IMG/VR virus record: IMGVR_UViG_3300013137_000097
Location: 1-23,512 of that record
DNA: 23,512 nt
Origin: a virus
Direction: 5' to 3' (one strand)
Below the pieces are notes generated by a model. It did not search any database. It saw only the letters and a list, made by a program, of their open reading frames with translations, and had not been told where the DNA came from. Every line of letters starts with the position of its first letter. The stretch's first letter is position 1. Shown here piece by piece: positions 7,580 through 22,595 of this stretch. A program made the translations under genes and the position numbers.

Positions 7580-8266
7580 TTATTTAAATCGCCATTTCTC
7601 GCGATGTTCTTTTAATGCTTCTGGACTATAATCTCCAAAATCGTTATCTGGTGTAAGCTGGGCAACCTGCCAAGCTCCTGCAGTGGCCATAACTAAGTCG
7701 TCGTGTTTATTTTGGGCAGCCTGAGCTCTTCCTTTGACTATTACAAATGATTTTAACTGCTTAAGTTGCTCTTGGTCATAAATAATTAATCTTCCTTGTT
7801 TAATCGCTAGTGCTAAATCATCTAACATCTTGCGACGAGTACCTTGGAGTTCTCCCCCAGATAGATGTCCAGTAGTTATCCATCCAATATCTCCCCCCTC
7901 ATGCGGTGTAATGGCTGTAAAGTCAACCATGCGAAACATATCTGGATAATTTAGTGTTTGCAAGACAAAAATAGTGGCTTGACCAGTATTGCGTTCAACC
8001 GCAAGTTTGGGGAAATTATTTGTGCGGACTTGGATATATTTCCCAAGGTTAAAAAGCTCATGACCAAACTGAGAAGACTCCATAACCTCATTAAAAACAA
8101 TTGGGAAATCATAATATTTTTTAGAGAATGCTACGGCGGCGCAGAAGTCTTGAGAATCAGCTGGATCAGCAAAAATTACAAGTTGCTCATTAACATCTAG
8201 TTGTCGATAAACTCTTGTCTGATAGTGGTTTGTAATATCAAACTTGTTAATTAAGTCGTTTTTCAT
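7580..8266 (-). CDS. Terminase large subunit, C-terminal nuclease part (split gene)
   Basis: A 228-residue protein matching the RNase H-like nuclease half of a phage large terminase. It begins with VIFADPADSQDF around residues 30-39 (D34/D37 are the likely first metal ligands). LAVERN follows in the middle with the acidic Glu, and HDDLVMATAGAW near 188-196 supplies the last Asp. This half cuts concatemeric DNA during packaging. The ATPase half is a separate gene at 8805-9722, with an HNH gene between them. I chose the ATG at 8264-8266 because it overlaps the HNH stop as ATGA; a GTG at 8306-8308 is possible but would overlap the HNH gene by 46 bases. There is no ribosome binding site, so translation depends on reinitiation after the HNH gene. 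Confidence 0.85.
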   Translation of the reverse strand: MKNDLINKFDITNHYQTRVYRQLDVNEQLVIFADPADSQDFCAAVAFSKKYYDFPIVFNEVMESSQFGHELFNLGKYIQVRTNNFPKLAVERNTGQATIFVLQTLNYPDMFRMVDFTAITPHEGGDIGWITTGHLSGGELQGTRRKMLDDLALAIKQGRLIIYDQEQLKQLKSFVIVKGRAQAAQNKHDDLVMATAGAWQVAQLTPDNDFGDYSPEALKEHREKWRFK

Positions 8267-8787
8267 AATTTTGATTTCCAGCCATAAGTCGGAGTATTTA
8301 TGTGACACTGTTTACAAATAGTTCTTCCATTATTAAGATTCCATAGGTCAGCACATAAAATTGCTTCTACTAGATTAGAAATAAAGTTTTCATTGATAAT
8401 TTTTATATATGGATGGATATGGTCTGCATGAAGTTCCCCACCTCTTTTAAGGCAAATTTGACAAGTATAGTCATCTCTTTTAAAGATTTGTTTTCTCCAC
8501 TGATAGTATTCAGGCAACTTCATAATGTTTTGTCTGAGCGTTCTATAAACTCCCCCAGACCATGATGGGTTAGACTTCCCCTCTGGGAATTTATATGCGT
8601 CTTTTGGTTTTTCCCCACCTGGCTTAAACTCTGTATCTGGACTTGCATGAATCCCCCTTCTCTTTTTTGACCACATCTCTCTAGTTTCTTGGCTATGTTT
8701 TTTCCCCAACATTCCCCTTCTCTTGAGACGCTTTTCCCTTATCGTTGGGTTTTGCCACTCTAATTTTCTTGTTTCGCTTCTATTCAT
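8263..8787 (-). CDS. HNH homing endonuclease inserted in the terminase gene
   Basis: A 174-residue protein with a NUMOD3-like DNA-binding motif at about residues 26-45 (GMLGKKHSQETREMWSKKRR) and a classic HNH domain at 95-165. The HNH domain has C109/C112 and C158/C161 as the structural zinc pair, HADHIHPY at 120-127 with the catalytic His, and an LWNLNNGR segment. It should cut a specific terminase site in relatives lacking the insertion. It starts 17 bases after the stop of the ATPase half and ends overlapping the nuclease half. A near-consensus TATAAT at 8796-8801 lies just before the ATG, so it may have its own weak, near-leaderless promoter. There is no room around it for a group I or II intron core. 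Confidence 0.88.
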   Translation of the reverse strand: MNRSETRKLEWQNPTIREKRLKRRGMLGKKHSQETREMWSKKRRGIHASPDTEFKPGGEKPKDAYKFPEGKSNPSWSGGVYRTLRQNIMKLPEYYQWRKQIFKRDDYTCQICLKRGGELHADHIHPYIKIINENFISNLVEAILCADLWNLNNGRTICKQCHINTPTYGWKSKL

Positions 8788-8804
8788 AAGTATATATTAT
8801 AGGA

Positions 8805-9722
8805 CTAAATAAAATGGCCATCGGGAGCCACCCTCCCAAACTCTACTGCGATAGCCTTTTCCTCCATCATTTTATTTAATATCGCCGCATCAAAGTATGG
8901 AGAGCCAGAAGTAATAAATGCTTCCTCTGGGGTATATGGATATTCTTGCCCTGCAAGTTTTTCGGTTGGGAACTCTTTGCGCTTTTCTTTAACCCATTCC
9001 TCTGAATAAAATTCTTGCCACCCAAAAAAACGAGGCTTATAAACACTTTGTCCATCTTCAGCCCTCTCCCACTCGGCGTGATAGAAGTTCCCCTCTCCAT
9101 TGGCGGTGGACTCAATAAATATCATCCCACGCCCTTGTGGAACCTGTTGTGCAGTAGCCAAAATCATCTCACTTGCCTTAAGCATTTCAGTGTCCTGATA
9201 GAATGCCGCCTCGGAAAAGTGAACATTGCGAGCAGAACCACCACGACCACCAACCTTGGCTCCTGCTGTTCCGATATAGAAAGTTGCGTGATTTTGTGAG
9301 TTGGTAATCATTCCTTTGTTGTCAGATCCCAACCAACTCTTTAATGTGTCGTCAGTATATGCCAACCCCTTTTCTTCTGCCCTCTTTTTTAAGTAGCTTT
9401 CTAGATAAAAACGAACCTTCTTAAAAAGAAGTTCTGTGGAGTCTCGGCGGTGGGAGATACAAATAGAAACAGAATAATCGCGCACAATAAAATCAACAGT
9501 AAATAGGGCTAATATAAAAGATGAAAATCCCTGTTGTCGGGCTTTAAGAATAATTTCTCTAATACCCTCTTGAGTTGGATGTTCATCATTTAACATTTTA
9601 AGATATTTATCTTGAACTGCATTTAGGCAAAATGGAACTGGCACTTGATCCTCTCGATCAATGACCTCAAAGTAGTGTTCTATAAATTTTTTATAGTCAA
9701 TCTTCTGAGACTTCGTCGCCAT
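8805..9722 (-). CDS. Terminase large subunit, N-terminal ATPase part (split gene)
   Basis: A 305-residue protein holding the packaging motor ATPase. The Walker A-like motif is KARQQGFSS at residues 60-68. The Walker B is NVHFSEAAF at 166-174 with E171 as probable catalytic Glu, and the coupling motif is ESTANG at 204-209. The protein stops soon after the linker that normally joins the ATPase to the nuclease (near SPYFDAAILNKMMEEK), at a TAG. Together with 7580-8266 it gives a complete terminase of ordinary size, about 530 residues. The start overlaps the small-subunit gene by 26 bases. The two halves would have to assemble as separate chains on the portal. Confidence 0.88.
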   Translation of the reverse strand: MATKSQKIDYKKFIEHYFEVIDREDQVPVPFCLNAVQDKYLKMLNDEHPTQEGIREIILKARQQGFSSFILALFTVDFIVRDYSVSICISHRRDSTELLFKKVRFYLESYLKKRAEEKGLAYTDDTLKSWLGSDNKGMITNSQNHATFYIGTAGAKVGGRGGSARNVHFSEAAFYQDTEMLKASEMILATAQQVPQGRGMIFIESTANGEGNFYHAEWERAEDGQSVYKPRFFGWQEFYSEEWVKEKRKEFPTEKLAGQEYPYTPEEAFITSGSPYFDAAILNKMMEEKAIAVEFGRVAPDGHFI

Positions 9723-10177: not shown

Positions 10178-10531
10178 TTATCTCATTGGAATAGCTGATG
10201 GTGAAAGTGGTTGTGGACTCCATTTAGAGATAATAAAAGTATCTACTCCCCTCTCAATTGTTTGATTACCATATTGAGACGCCTTATCTAATAAATCATC
10301 TAAAACACTCTCGTCACTTCCAAGAAATTCTTCTCTCCTTATTTGCCCAAGTTCGTTTTCCCATACAGTTGTTGTAACCCCAAATAGTGCCTTCTCTAAA
10401 GAATTACCATTGAGAATTTGCAAGATGTTTAGGTCGAGACGTGGGCGGGCATAGGTCTTTGCAACTAGGGTCCAAGTGTGTGGAACTTCTGATTTTTTAG
10501 TACTAAATATTTTAAAAAGATTAACTCCCAT
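10178..10531 (-). CDS. Hypothetical protein upstream of terminase small subunit
   Basis: A 117-residue protein. I start it at the ATG at 10529-10531 because an AGGAGGGA site lies five bases upstream; a longer frame beginning at 10564 lacks such a site. Features are a basic N-terminus and a soluble mixed region with VTTTVWENELGQIRREEFLG. A C-terminal stretch reads VDTFIISKWSPQPLSP. It overlaps the RHH gene by 11 bases and is followed by the small terminase gene, so all belong to one transcription unit. No family recognised. Confidence 0.7.
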   Translation of the reverse strand: MGVNLFKIFSTKKSEVPHTWTLVAKTYARPRLDLNILQILNGNSLEKALFGVTTTVWENELGQIRREEFLGSDESVLDDLLDKASQYGNQTIERGVDTFIISKWSPQPLSPSAIPMR

Positions 10532-10712
10532 TTGTCCCTCCTGACCCCCCATTTTGAGATACAAGTCTAACTTCCTGGACTTGATGTTTATAATCTAAAA
10601 CCGACCTCATTGAAAAGCGGATAAACTCTGACCTATTATATTCGTGATTTATACAATATTCGTCTACCTTAAGTAGTAGTTCATCGGGAAGGGAAATAAT
10701 AATCTTAGCCAT
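10521..10712 (-). CDS. Ribbon-helix-helix DNA-binding regulator
   Basis: A 63-residue protein with a CopG/Arc-like ribbon-helix-helix fold. A beta strand MAKIIISLPDELL at 1-13 would lie in the DNA major groove as a dimer. Helix one follows (LLKVDEYC), then the conserved turn NRSEFIRFSMRSVL at 26-39. The tail is Gly/Ser-rich. I start at the ATG at 10710-10712 because the fold begins there; the frame extends to a TTG at 10748 that overlaps the -35 box. It heads the terminase transcription unit. An inverted TGGT...ACCA lies over its own -10, so autorepression is likely. Confidence 0.8.
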   Translation of the reverse strand: MAKIIISLPDELLLKVDEYCINHEYNRSEFIRFSMRSVLDYKHQVQEVRLVSQNGGSGGTNGS

Positions 10713-10717
10713 TAATA

Positions 10718-10748
10718 TGGTATATATAACCAAGATATTGTCTGTCAA
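10718..10748 (-). promoter_or_regulatory. Promoter and operator of the RHH gene
   Basis: A consensus TTGACA (-35) at 10743-10748 is followed after 16 bases by TATATA at 10721-10726. TGGT-N7-ACCA inverted arms (10718-10732) cover the -10. The ATG of the RHH gene begins eight bases after the -10, so the mRNA would be nearly leaderless. Confidence 0.6.
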
Positions 10749-10816
10749 TAATATGGGACGTAGCAGTCTTTAAGTTAGAGTGCTAAAAGTTTAGAAAAAA
10801 TAATTATTGCGATTTA

Positions 10817-11107
10817 TCAACCCTTTTTCGAAAATCGGTACGACCACAGGTCCAACCAATTCTTTGATTCACTAGAATTAAAATGTGAAGGCGGTAATAA
10901 ACGAACTTTATTTTCAGCCAGAGGAGTTGAATTTTTAGCTGGGCAATCCTCGCGACTAGCCAAAGTAAAGTTAAAAATTCCTCTTTGTATTTCCGCAGCT
11001 TCTCTCTCCAAGCTACTAGGACTCTGCCAAAGAACAACTTCCCTTGGAGTTTCTGGTTGTATAGATTCTCTTTTTTGTCTTCTACCATGTTCATGCTCTA
11101 TAACCAT
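10817..11107 (-). CDS. Hypothetical protein
   Basis: A 96-residue hydrophilic protein rich in Arg, Glu, Ser and Pro. It includes a helix-like SSLEREAAEIQRGIFNF region and a C-terminal NWLDLWSYRFSKKG. An AGGATGGT sequence just before the ATG supports the start, which lies six bases after the stop of the upstream gene. It is probably mostly disordered and I recognise no domain. A competing frame of similar length at 10804-11094 has poorer composition and no ribosome binding site. The 68 bases between its stop and the RHH promoter contain no gene. Confidence 0.55.
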   Translation of the reverse strand: MVIEHEHGRRQKRESIQPETPREVVLWQSPSSLEREAAEIQRGIFNFTLASREDCPAKNSTPLAENKVRLLPPSHFNSSESKNWLDLWSYRFSKKG

Positions 11108-19774: not shown

Positions 19775-19858
19775 CTACCTAAACATAAACCAAGTAAATA
19801 TTAATAATGCAAGTCCACTAAATACTGATCCAACTAGTTGATTCCAATCGGTACACAT
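19775..19858 (-). CDS. 27-residue single-helix membrane peptide
   Basis: It begins with ATG overlapping the previous stop as TAATG and ends shortly before the next gene. After a polar start (MCTDWNQ) comes a helix of about 18 hydrophobic residues (VGSVFSGLALLIFTWFMF) and a terminal Arg. Size and hydrophobicity make it a candidate membrane micro-protein, for instance an accessory lysis or membrane regulator; this is inference. Exact packing between neighbours is the main evidence. Confidence 0.5.
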   Translation of the reverse strand: MCTDWNQLVGSVFSGLALLIFTWFMFR

Positions 19859-20109
19859 TAGTTTCCTTTCTTCTGCCAAGCAGAACAACATCCATCACAG
19901 CCGTGGACCCCGTCACAGTGCCCAATGCCGTGGGGACAAATATTCTCCCAAATATCTCGATCATCCCTATAATGGCGTTTCCAACCCTTTGGAAGCTTAG
20001 AACACTCTTCACAACCATTCTCTACTATTTCAATAGTTTTATCTTTACTCATACAGCGACATTGTCCTAAGACTACCCCACAAGAGCATTTGCGAATAAA
20101 GTGTGTCAT
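19858..20109 (-). CDS. Cysteine-rich zinc-binding mini-protein
   Basis: An 83-residue protein with eleven cysteines: CSC at 8-10, CRC at 17-19, CEEC at 33-36, CPHGIGHC at 58-65 and CDGCC at 71-75, with His in the last clusters. This would hold two or more zinc ions. The middle is charged (KLPKGWKRHYRDDRDIW). A strong AAGGAG site precedes it, and the start overlaps the upstream stop as ATGA. It belongs to a run of zinc mini-proteins. The target is unknown. Confidence 0.7.
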   Translation of the reverse strand: MTHFIRKCSCGVVLGQCRCMSKDKTIEIVENGCEECSKLPKGWKRHYRDDRDIWENICPHGIGHCDGVHGCDGCCSAWQKKGN

Positions 20110-20258
20110 TTCTTTTTCTCCTTAGTTTCTCCAAAGGTTATCCCAAGAACCCTTTCCCCATCTTTTGAATTATGTAGGGTAATTGTGTCCCATCCGACAA
20201 CTTTGTGTCCAAACCAGACCCATAGCTCAAACATTTTATATGTCCACCAGATTTTCAT
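20106..20258 (-). CDS. 50-residue aromatic-rich hypothetical protein
   Basis: A small protein with many tryptophans at the start (MKIWWTYKMFELWVWFGHKVVGWD) and a basic lysine-rich end (TKEKKK). The start and stop both overlap the neighbouring genes as ATGA, which strongly supports translation. The N-terminal stretch could be an amphipathic or membrane-surface segment. No family recognised. Confidence 0.65.
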   Translation of the reverse strand: MKIWWTYKMFELWVWFGHKVVGWDTITLHNSKDGERVLGITFGETKEKKK

Positions 20259-20413
20259 TGTTTTACCTTTGCCCCAAAGAATGATTCAAACATCTCAAAT
20301 GGGTTATTAGCCTGTTTTTCTTTGGGCTTCTCTTTCTTTTGGCATTTCATACACATATCCTTAAACCAGGTTGTGATTGTCCCACAGTGTTCGCAGTATT
20401 TAGTGTGAATCAT
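20255..20413 (-). CDS. 52-residue zinc-knuckle protein
   Basis: Residues 7-24 form a zinc ribbon (CEHCG ... CMKC). A lysine-rich linker and a short C-terminal helix (NNPFEMFESFFGAKV) follow. That aromatic helix looks like a docking peptide for a partner protein. ATGA overlaps at both ends place it in the run that starts from the promoter at 20665-20693. The partner is unknown. Confidence 0.7.
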   Translation of the reverse strand: MIHTKYCEHCGTITTWFKDMCMKCQKKEKPKEKQANNPFEMFESFFGAKVKQ

Positions 20414-20655
20414 TGTTTTTTGAAGAATAACTCTTCCTCCATAAAATCATCATGTGGATTAAAAATAAATTTTCTTAATGGACAAAAATAATGTATCACA
20501 TACTGGCGTAGACCAGTGTCTCTATTAAACCTTGTGTGAGTATGGGGACAATAGCAATCCCCATATTCATATGTTCTATAGTTCTCTGCTCCAACAAGTT
20601 CTCCCTTTAGTCTCGATCCGCAGTGTGAACAAAATGTGTGGAGGGGCTTCTTCAT
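20410..20655 (-). CDS. Zinc-ribbon protein heading an operon
   Basis: An 81-residue protein with CSHCG at 9-13 and later CYCPHTHT at 34-41 and CP near 58, enough for one or two zinc sites. The rest is aromatic and strand-like (RTYEYGD and LRQYVIHYF), ending in an acidic then basic tail. There is no ribosome binding site; the strong promoter directly upstream leaves only about three bases before the ATG, so it is probably translated as a leaderless message. It heads the run of zinc mini-proteins. Confidence 0.72.
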   Translation of the reverse strand: MKKPLHTFCSHCGSRLKGELVGAENYRTYEYGDCYCPHTHTRFNRDTGLRQYVIHYFCPLRKFIFNPHDDFMEEELFFKKQ

Positions 20656-20664
20656 ATTGACTAG

Positions 20665-20693
20665 ACTATATCATATATAGCCATCTTTGTCAA
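20665..20693 (-). promoter_or_regulatory. Strong promoter of the zinc mini-protein operon
   Basis: TTGACA (20688-20693), a 17-base spacer and TATAGT (20665-20670). The -35 starts one base after the stop of the His-rich gene, and the next ATG is at 20653-20655. It closely matches 15295-15323 and shares the ATGG spacer motif with 16703-16731. Confidence 0.78.
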
Positions 20694-20694
20694 A

Positions 20695-20871
20695 TTAGTG
20701 AGAGTGGGAAGAGTCGGCACATAAATAGATCTTATCTCCCAGCCACCAAGGTCGTTGACCCCAAATCTTTTCCTCATACCCACATTCGGTGCAGTATTTT
20801 ACCCCACATTGGTAGCAATACTCCCAGTTGTGAATATGGTGATGATGGTGATGATTATGATTGTGTAGCAT
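20695..20871 (-). CDS. 58-residue zinc ribbon with natural His6 tract
   Basis: The first 14 residues include HNHNHHHHHHIH, six histidines in a row and nine in total, encoded by mixed CAT and CAC codons. Residues 19-31 form a zinc ribbon (CYQCG ... CTECG). A tryptophan-rich segment (GQRPWWLGDK) and a final His-rich end (SSHSH) follow. This should bind Zn, Ni or similar metal strongly. A strong AAGGAG site inside the end of the vWA gene sets the start, giving a 17-base overlap, so it is co-translated with the vWA protein. Metal storage or delivery to the vWA or zinc proteins is inference. Confidence 0.7.
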   Translation of the reverse strand: MLHNHNHHHHHHIHNWEYCYQCGVKYCTECGYEEKIWGQRPWWLGDKIYLCADSSHSH

Positions 20872-21517
20872 TTAACTCCTTTGTCATGTCTTTAGATCCA
20901 CTGAAAAATTCACTAGTTCCCCCTCCACCACCAGCTGAGGCCGACATTGCATAAAATGCAGTATTCTGGGCAAGAGAGCGAAGTGCCGTGGTTGAGCCAA
21001 GAGAGCTAGCTTCCCAGCTTAATGAATTACCCCTAGCAATTCCAAAGCTTTGAGCGGTTTGCCAAGCATCTTGGTTAGCGCCCATAAAGGTAAAGGTCCA
21101 ATTACCCCTTTGCTCTAGTTTCTTGATCAAATCCTTAAGACACTTCTCATCGTGCTTAACGGAAGAGTTCTCTTCTCCGTCTGTCATAATGGTAACGACC
21201 ACTGCTTTTCTACCCTTCATTTCATTAACTCGCTCGACAATGTTCTCAATGGTTTCGACTGCCGCATCATAAAGTGGGGTACCGCCGTTTGGTCTATATG
21301 TTTTATTATCTAGTGGCTTAACGTCTTTAATCGGAGTTAGAAGATATGGGGTATCAATACTAACAGTATCAAAGAGGGTGAGGGTAAACAAAATATCCTT
21401 ACTATTCTCTCCATCCTTAAGTTCTTTAATGTATGCATTAAATCCACCAATGACATCCTTTCTGATTGATTCCATTGAACCAGATTTATCCAGTATGAAG
21501 TTGACTATCGTTTTCAT
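20855..21517 (-). CDS. vWA-domain protein
   Basis: A 220-residue von Willebrand A domain with an intact metal-ion adhesion site: DKSGS at 10-14, T80 in NGGTPLYDA and D113 in TDGEENSS. Such domains bind partner proteins through Mg2+ or Mn2+. The C-terminal region carries a flexible stretch with GGGGG near residue 196. There is no signal peptide, so it acts in the cytoplasm. I start at the ATG at 21515-21517, with AAGGAGAA upstream; the frame's earlier ATG has no site and would remove nothing of the domain. It overlaps the Phd-like gene by 32 bases and the His-rich gene by 17. Confidence 0.85.
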   Translation of the reverse strand: MKTIVNFILDKSGSMESIRKDVIGGFNAYIKELKDGENSKDILFTLTLFDTVSIDTPYLLTPIKDVKPLDNKTYRPNGGTPLYDAAVETIENIVERVNEMKGRKAVVVTIMTDGEENSSVKHDEKCLKDLIKKLEQRGNWTFTFMGANQDAWQTAQSFGIARGNSLSWEASSLGSTTALRSLAQNTAFYAMSASAGGGGGTSEFFSGSKDMTKELNATQS

Positions 21518-21722
21518 TTGACGATTCTCCTTTAATTGTTGCTCTAAGAGCTGAACCCCCACCTGCGCCTCCACCTCCTCCTAAAATAGAAGAGACACAA
21601 AATACGGCTTGTCCCCTATTTGTTATTAGGGTAGCCTCTCCTGGGGCAGGAAGGTTTTGATAAATATTTTGTTGGAACTCACGGATCCCAACGGATTTTG
21701 TGTGATTGTGGTCATGAATCAT
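21486..21722 (-). CDS. Phd/YefM-like protein with glycine-rich linker
   Basis: A 78-residue protein. Residues 9-46 resemble the N-terminal DNA-binding domain of Phd/YefM antitoxins: SVGIREFQQNIYQNL, then GEATLITNRGQAVFCV. The start has a HDHNH stretch. A GGGGGAGGGS linker leads to a charged tail (RATIKGESSNENDS), in place of the usual toxin-binding helix. The next gene is a vWA protein rather than a recognisable toxin. I start at the ATG at 21720-21722, which overlaps the upstream stop as ATGA. It could autoregulate through the palindromes at 21948-21986. The family call is moderate. Confidence 0.6.
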   Translation of the reverse strand: MIHDHNHTKSVGIREFQQNIYQNLPAPGEATLITNRGQAVFCVSSILGGGGGAGGGSALRATIKGESSNENDSQLHTG

Positions 21723-21946
21723 AATACAACTTCTCCAAGTAGACATCCCTCGTGTACTAGACCCCCTTTATATATTTTGGGTTGGACAACCATTCCGCAG
21801 GCATCACATTTGAAATAACACCACCATTGGAATAATCCACACCTAGAACATCTTTTATTTTTTTCGTCGTAAGAGCATCCATAGTTAGAACAAATTAGTT
21901 TTCTAACTATCTTTATCGCCCATCGTGGTAAGTGGTTGTAAATCAT
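21719..21946 (-). CDS. Zinc-finger protein heading the vWA module
   Basis: A 75-residue protein with a basic start (HLPRWAIKIVRKL) and cysteines at C19, C24, C33, C36 (CSRCG) and then C43, C47, C50 (CDACG) and C68, enough for two zinc sites. It has no ribosome binding site, and the ATG lies about ten bases after a putative -10, again a near-leaderless arrangement. It is followed by the Phd-like gene via an ATGA overlap. The function is unknown; its position suggests a co-regulator or partner of the vWA protein. Confidence 0.68.
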   Translation of the reverse strand: MIYNHLPRWAIKIVRKLICSNYGCSYDEKNKRCSRCGLFQWWCYFKCDACGMVVQPKIYKGGLVHEGCLLGEVVL

Positions 21947-21947
21947 G

Positions 21948-21986
21948 TGTAGCTACATTGAAACATACATGTAGCTACATTGTCAA
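21948..21986 (-). promoter_or_regulatory. Promoter with two TGTAGCTACA operators
   Basis: TGTAGCTACATTG occurs at 21948-21960 and 21970-21982, 22 bases apart, which puts both palindromes on one face of the helix. TTGACA (-35) lies at 21981-21986. The best -10 is a weak TTCAAT (18-base spacer) between the palindromes. A dimer bound to each would block the promoter of the zinc-finger/Phd-like/vWA genes. Confidence 0.6.
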
Positions 21987-21990
21987 TACC

Positions 21991-22326
21991 CTAATATAAA
22001 TCTTCACTAAATAGAGTCCCCCGCATATATCCTTCTGGAGAAGCACTGGGTATTCCTGCGGCGTCCTGGAGCTTCCTACCCTCTTCTCTAGTTACATAGC
22101 GGTTGTATGAGGTAATAAAGCCCTGGTCGCCAATCATTAGCTCTTTTTGGTCTAGGTGTTCGGCAACGCCCGCATGGAAACAATCCGCATGGCGGTGACC
22201 ACGGACAACGGTCCCGTCGTTTAATTTGATGGCAGCACAGATACAAATCTCTGGTTTAAAGAAATCCCAGTAGCCATACTTCTCCCCGTATTCTTTCCAC
22301 TGGGAAACTCCCATCGGCGAGTTCAT
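21991..22326 (-). CDS. Conserved-looking phage protein, unknown function
   Basis: A 111-residue protein starting at the ATG that overlaps the upstream stop as ATGA, with GGGAGG ahead of it; a GTG 18 bases further up is an alternative. The middle has ICICAAIKLNDGTVVRGHRH, then ADCFH, and the C-terminal half has QGFITSYNRYVTREEGRKLQ and ends in LFSEDLY. I associate these blocks with a family common in phage genomes, without an assigned function. The His/Cys set (HRHADCFH) could bind metal. Confidence 0.7.
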   Translation of the reverse strand: MNSPMGVSQWKEYGEKYGYWDFFKPEICICAAIKLNDGTVVRGHRHADCFHAGVAEHLDQKELMIGDQGFITSYNRYVTREEGRKLQDAAGIPSASPEGYMRGTLFSEDLY

Positions 22327-22595
22327 ACAATATCTACCTCCCACTCGGCTTCACAAGAGATACAGTGTTTATCTTTTTTACTTAGATGGACTTCCATCCC
22401 ACAGTGGCAGTGTTTTTTAATAATATAGCTCCACGCCTCTTCCTTGGTTTTAAAAATTGGTTCGTCTGGGAAATTTTCTTCATTGGGCATATATACTGGT
22501 TGATACCCCCCACAACACTGGTCACACCAAGCTACCCTTTCGTCTGGTTGTTTGCCACAGGCTGGGCATCTATCGGATTCATCGTAAGTCTTCAT
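22323..22595 (-). CDS. Double zinc-ribbon protein
   Basis: A 90-residue protein with two cysteine modules: CPACG at 10-14 with CDQCC at 24-28, then CHCG around 63-66 with CISC at 78-81. An acidic/aromatic region containing EEAWSYIIKKH lies between. Two zinc ions are expected. GGAGAA stands just before the ATG, which overlaps the membrane-protein stop as ATGA. It is the first of the zinc mini-proteins in transcription order. Confidence 0.7.
   Translation of the reverse strand: MKTYDESDRCPACGKQPDERVAWCDQCCGGYQPVYMPNEENFPDEPIFKTKEEAWSYIIKKHCHCGMEVHLSKKDKHCISCEAEWEVDIV

Follow-up and report, generated by a model that had tools for sequence, protein, structure and literature searches.

A small vWA protein with an intact MIDAS and a His-rich zinc ribbon, encoded by two overlapping genes, recur together in phages. 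This vWA/His-zinc unit is a new conserved pairing of known domains, which in the DNA analysed here lies behind an operator of known style, and it is not a new toxin-antitoxin class. Small vWA proteins are encoded by some 200 sequenced phages and have no known function or partner; the zinc ribbon provides a concrete partner to test.

The window, by which the whole stretch of DNA analysed is meant, is a 23,512-bp IMG/VR virus record carrying phage packaging and capsid genes. The relatives of its terminase and capsid proteins are less than 35% identical and point to no host. Four ORFs on the minus strand (Table 1) overlap by 4 (ATGA), 32 and 17 bases in 5'-3' order and encode a zinc-finger-like protein, a Phd-like protein, the vWA protein and the His-rich zinc ribbon. 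A preliminary description of this DNA had listed these four overlapping genes, including two for zinc proteins, one for an intact-MIDAS vWA protein and one for a Phd-like protein, behind one control region with two palindromes 22 bases apart. These observations are confirmed, the two zinc proteins as small Cys-rich proteins and the palindromes as exact copies of one sequence, and the interpretation that had been placed on them is partly supported. Because the next gene, with its ATG at 20655, has a promoter-like site of its own, the unit probably ends at 20695.

Table 1. Positions of the four genes, their control region and related features in the window.
Feature	Position	Strand	Remarks
Zinc-finger-like protein, Cys-rich, 75 aa	21719..21946	-	ORF; no Shine-Dalgarno sequence
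Phd/YefM-fold protein (likely), 78 aa	21486..21722	-	N-terminal MIHDHNH; Gly-rich tail where the antitoxin C-terminal helix is expected
vWA protein, 220 aa	20855..21517	-	Shine-Dalgarno AAAGGAG; phrog_7371, E 3e-42; intact MIDAS; conserved C-terminal FF motif
His-rich zinc ribbon, 58 aa	20695..20871	-	Shine-Dalgarno AAAGGAG; HNHNHHHHHHIH then CxxCx4CxxC; conserved, directly 3' of vWA
Promoter-like TTGACA-17-TATAGT of the next gene (ATG 20655)	20665..20693	-	Sequence and promoter scan
Predicted promoter	21957..21986	-	Sequence and promoter scan; -35 TTGACA 21986-21981; 18-bp spacer; extended -10 TG-T-TTCAAT 21965-21957; predicted start ~21950
Candidate operator TGTAGCTACA, copy 1	21970..21979	.	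Immediately follows the -35; 22-bp distance to copy 2
Candidate operator TGTAGCTACA, copy 2	21948..21957	.	On the minus strand its first T coincides with the final T of the -10 hexamer
CopG-type ribbon-helix-helix protein	10524..10712	-	Only RHH seen in the record; ~11 kb from the operator

The MIDAS residues of the vWA protein (D10, S12, S14, T80 and D113) are all present and are invariant in 10 relatives, and the protein looks functional. The AF2 model (pLDDT 89.5, pTM 0.87) has the vWA fold with a MIDAS of the form DxSxS...T...D, and its structural matches include an integrin I domain (Z 19.6) and the vWA subunit of TFIIH (Z 18.4). A C-terminal F/FF motif is also conserved among relatives. 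The match to the Pfam VWA family lies below the cut-off (18.2 of 23.8 bits), and that to phrog_7371 is strong. Matches to phrog_7371 are found in 194 annotated phage records, and many uncultured phages and some bacteria also encode relatives of the vWA protein. The window protein resembles the phrog_7371 proteins in family, size, MIDAS and single-domain layout, whereas most of them, unlike the window protein, are not accompanied by an overlapping gene for a His-rich zinc ribbon.

The five closest vWA proteins, those of the window and of L003, L004, L005 and L006 (48-53% identity), are without exception followed by an overlapping 3' gene for a His-rich CxxCx4CxxC protein, and the His residues at the N-terminal start of the zinc ribbons are conserved. 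The flanks of the pair differ: terminase genes are found in L003 and L005 and glycosyltransferase genes in L004 and L006. The slot upstream of vWA is occupied by a gene for a SEC-C zinc protein in L003, by a Phd-like gene in L004 and by other genes in L005 and L006. Since the pair is kept in all five but the upstream genes vary, a two-gene cassette is conserved; the four-gene order, proposed earlier as a candidate module, is not. The lack of such an order in other genomes had been named as a ground for rejecting the module, and it is largely borne out. Because the His-zinc protein is a short protein rich in Cys, its spread is poorly sampled, and only five pairs are known; an alignment scan with the zinc ribbons returned only L003 and L004 and missed L006, and is thus not sensitive. 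After the vWA gene in about 100 more distant loci no His/Cys-rich gene was flagged, and when viral and bacterial genomes were scanned more broadly with vWA, no additional close member emerged and no host was indicated. The literature searched contained no paper that combines vWA, MIDAS and a phage-encoded protein.

No homologue of the zinc-finger-like protein was found, the best hit being a weak Pfam Zn-ribbon match (E 0.11), and Pfam, NCBIfam and PADLOC returned nothing convincing for this protein, the Phd-like protein or the zinc ribbon. Small Cys-rich proteins cluster round the unit between 19858 and 22595 (19858-20109, 20255-20413, 20410-20655 and 22323-22595). Because they lie all round it, zinc-protein neighbours are not special to the unit.

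The predicted promoter of the four genes combines a perfect -35 (TTGACA) with the extended -10 TGTTTCAAT, whose hexamer TTCAAT is without the usual A at position 2. The 10-bp palindrome TGTAGCTACA is present in the 23.5-kb record as two exact copies, starting at 21948 and 21970, and nowhere else, which gives the minus-strand layout TTGACA-A-TGTAGCTACA-TGTATGTTTCAA-TGTAGCTACA-CATG. A 10-bp palindrome repeated within 40 bp occurred in none of 200 simulated windows, as against once in the real one. The ATG at 21946 lies only 10 nt past the -10 and has no Shine-Dalgarno sequence, so that the mRNA of the four genes would be nearly leaderless. At three minus-strand genes, those starting at 21946, 20655 and 19215, the ATG follows the -10 box by 10, 9 and 7 nt, respectively; their -35 is TTGACA or TTGCCA, and the first two are without a Shine-Dalgarno sequence by inspection. 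These short distances suggest leaderless transcripts in this phage.

IMG/VR was scanned for two copies of TGTAGCTACA within 5-30 bp, with a composition-matched palindrome as the control. Pairs were found in at least 120 stretches (L083-L202), many of them from one phage group and hence not independent, as against 5 for the control. Distances of 23-24 and 31-33 bp are preferred. In the 22-24 bp class copy 1 follows a TTG(C/A) -35 and copy 2 follows the -10, as in the window, and in L125 the distance is likewise 22 bp, with TATAGT as the -10. L132, L185 and L199 each carry many promoter-bracketing pairs, which suggests regulons. In L112, eight copies lie within 125 bp. Beside the pairs are genes for Arc-like repressors (phrog_6506, E 1.9e-6), an RHH_3 protein (E 0.005), BrnA (E 9e-18) and BrnT (E 2.5e-20). 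A double TGTAGCTACA is also seen in front of phage-associated brnTA (BrnT in L124, L163 and L178; BrnA in L166 and L176). The largest cluster of operator-adjacent ORFs comprises 44 'MAKSKPIGVRFD...' proteins that look like RHH proteins by eye only; database searches with this cluster gave no support for RHH, and a profile comparison of two RHH-looking clusters showed no relationship. No Phd family match was present among the families listed for representative ORFs adjoining the pairs. A literature search did not turn up any clear description of TGTAGCTACA as an operator, the matches looking like unrelated sequences.

Paired TGTAGCTACA is thus a recurrent kind of putative operator that is common in phages. 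Because the pair adjoins Arc, RHH or BrnA genes in other phages, the pair in the window is best read as a candidate RHH-type operator. It shares with the double TGTAGCTACA beside Arc/RHH genes and brnTA the 10-bp palindrome, the two copies, the 22-24 bp distance and the bracketing of the -35 and -10. Elsewhere, however, this class often adjoins an Arc/RHH or BrnA gene, whereas no RHH gene adjoins the operator in the window and the adjacent gene encodes the zinc-finger-like protein. The distant CopG-type gene (10524-10712) is preceded, within 10690-10830, by a site that resembles a TTGACA promoter and whose -10 is covered by the imperfect palindrome TTGGTTATATATACCATA; this palindrome differs from TGTAGCTACA and is probably the operator of the RHH gene itself. 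Since pairs of TGTAGCTACA bracket promoters in many phages, they could allow Arc/RHH-type regulons to be mapped from sequence alone.

The AlphaFold model of the Phd-like protein has a beta-alpha-alpha-beta-beta arrangement at residues 9-45, with pLDDT 79-85 in the core blocks. Antitoxins of the Phd/YefM/VapB46 type, or related ones, take the first six places among the Foldseek matches and the first 13 among the VIA matches, with modest scores (Z 4.4, E 0.19), and an independent sequence profile gave VapB46 as its best match (E 0.07). Taken together, the structural matches and the profile make the N-terminal fold of Phd/YefM likely, in agreement with the Phd-like character first assigned to the protein. 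No match to PF02604 or NCBIfam was obtained at E 10, and PADLOC reported nothing. Searches for relatives yielded none beyond that in L004, which came in via its vWA protein and has a weak antitoxin PHROG match (E 0.011). The heptapeptide MIHDHNH opens both the Phd-like protein of the window (21702-21722) and the zinc ribbon of L003 (4642-4662), and the DNA encoding it is similar, not identical, in the two. The tails of the Phd-like and vWA proteins of L004 (3745-3987 and 3974-4630) are alike, with SVNFMA...VLR, and the window pair has Gly runs. This likeness was not used: the comparison was chosen post hoc and its statistics are borderline, as in L004 the tails alone beat 1000 shuffles but the whole proteins failed (39 of 1000).

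The Phd-like protein had been named as the natural candidate for the repressor, with the vWA protein in the slot expected for a toxin. Such a toxin-antitoxin-like unit, in which the vWA protein would be the toxin and the Phd-like protein would serve both as its antitoxin and, through the two palindromes, as an autorepressor, would agree with the fold, the antitoxin matches, the VapB46 profile and the antitoxin PHROG match of the L004 relative, as well as with the position of the Phd-like gene before vWA in the window and L004 and the TGTA half-sites of the paired palindromes in the promoter. It is nevertheless improbable. The tail of the Phd-like protein is Gly-rich (pLDDT ~43-50) and no toxin-neutralising helix is seen in it, although the tails of genuine antitoxins are likewise disordered when free. 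The neighbouring gene encodes the vWA protein and not a known toxin (Doc, YoeB/RelE-like or PIN). A Phd-like gene precedes vWA in only one of the four close relatives (L004), and no Phd neighbour of vWA was seen in the other three or in the other loci screened. In most relatives vWA has no Phd neighbour, which weakens the reading of vWA as the toxin. The blank results with PF02604 and PADLOC also speak against such a unit. R10 and R31 of YefM are essential for operator binding (PMC4803016), but the aligned residues of the Phd-like protein are Q17 and N35 (by the VapB46 alignment, with YefM placed by motif). The operators of YefM/Axe have TGTACA cores spaced 12 bp centre to centre (PMC7730913), from which the TGTAGCTACA pair at 22 bp differs in both core and spacing. 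These replacements, the different operator and the Arc/RHH or BrnA neighbours of the operator in other phages likewise argue against the Phd-like protein as the repressor. It shares the N-terminal fold of the Phd/YefM/VapB46 antitoxins but departs from them in both arginines, in having no visible toxin-binding helix and no known toxin, in the operator and in its additional MIHDHNH start. It looks like an optional extra and not like a standard antitoxin or half of a toxin-antitoxin pair. This serves as a warning that a Phd-fold gene behind a TGTA/TACA palindrome is insufficient for naming the repressor.

Some weight must be given to the idea that four unrelated small genes share one transcript, with a functional link at most between vWA and the His-zinc protein, or none. 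Small Cys-rich ORFans crowd the region 19858-22595, no relative was found for the zinc finger, the Phd-like gene has one relative beside vWA, and overlap is usual in compact phage operons. On the whole this idea is unlikely, as the adjacency of vWA and the His-zinc gene in five phages with different flanks is hard to explain by chance synteny. It is rather improbable that the unit is metal-linked, the MIHDHNH of the Phd-like protein and the HxHxH of the zinc ribbon binding the same metal and so coupling zinc to assembly or expression. The seven residues shared with the L003 zinc ribbon fit such a link, as do the HKH of the L004 Phd-like protein, the conserved N-terminal His residues of the zinc ribbons and the metal site of vWA, but short His-rich starts arise easily and no metal-resistance or transport gene is seen nearby. 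A very improbable variant is a phage-encoded, zinc-dependent vWA scaffold with a dedicated His-rich zinc subunit, for which, in some phages, a Phd-fold domain with the same His-rich start would have been taken over from a toxin-antitoxin role as an assembly regulator; if this were true, an antitoxin domain would work on a vWA machine and not on a toxin.

The explanation tentatively favoured here, at somewhat less than an even chance, is an adaptor of two subunits, vWA and the zinc protein, which can take up the Phd-fold protein as an optional further subunit and is expressed from a nearly leaderless promoter controlled by an RHH-type operator. The core would be a two-gene phage cassette in which vWA and the His-rich zinc ribbon are co-translated from overlapping genes. 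We infer that the two proteins most likely assemble, the zinc protein docking onto vWA, and that together they would serve as an adaptor for some complex of the host or the phage, in the way that the zinc-finger protein ArnA acts with the vWA protein ArnB. To this core the Phd-fold protein would add an optional subunit that has lost its antitoxin features. Expression would start from the nearly leaderless promoter, the -10 of which is bracketed by the two TGTAGCTACA sites. These most likely would bind a ribbon-helix-helix (Arc/BrnA-like) repressor, encoded outside the record or by the host, which would hold the unit silent until it is lost.

A vWA protein is combined with zinc modules also in TFIIH and Sec23/24. 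The motility regulators ArnA and ArnB of Sulfolobus, in which a zinc ribbon is likewise partnered with a vWA protein, are a precedent for such a complex (PMC12852372; PMC6509490), and for binding to ArnB the zinc ribbon of ArnA is enough by itself (PMC12852372). However, the FHA domain and RanBP2-type ribbon of ArnA, like the beta-sandwich and helical bundle of ArnB, are not seen in the window pair. The vWA protein of the window consists of a single vWA domain and a short tail, and its 58-aa partner is too short for an FHA domain.

Elsewhere in the window, the large terminase appears to be split (7580-9722). Its N-terminal part (8805-9722) and C-terminal part (7580-8308) are separated by a gene for an HNH endonuclease (8263-8787), as though a homing endonuclease had inserted itself.
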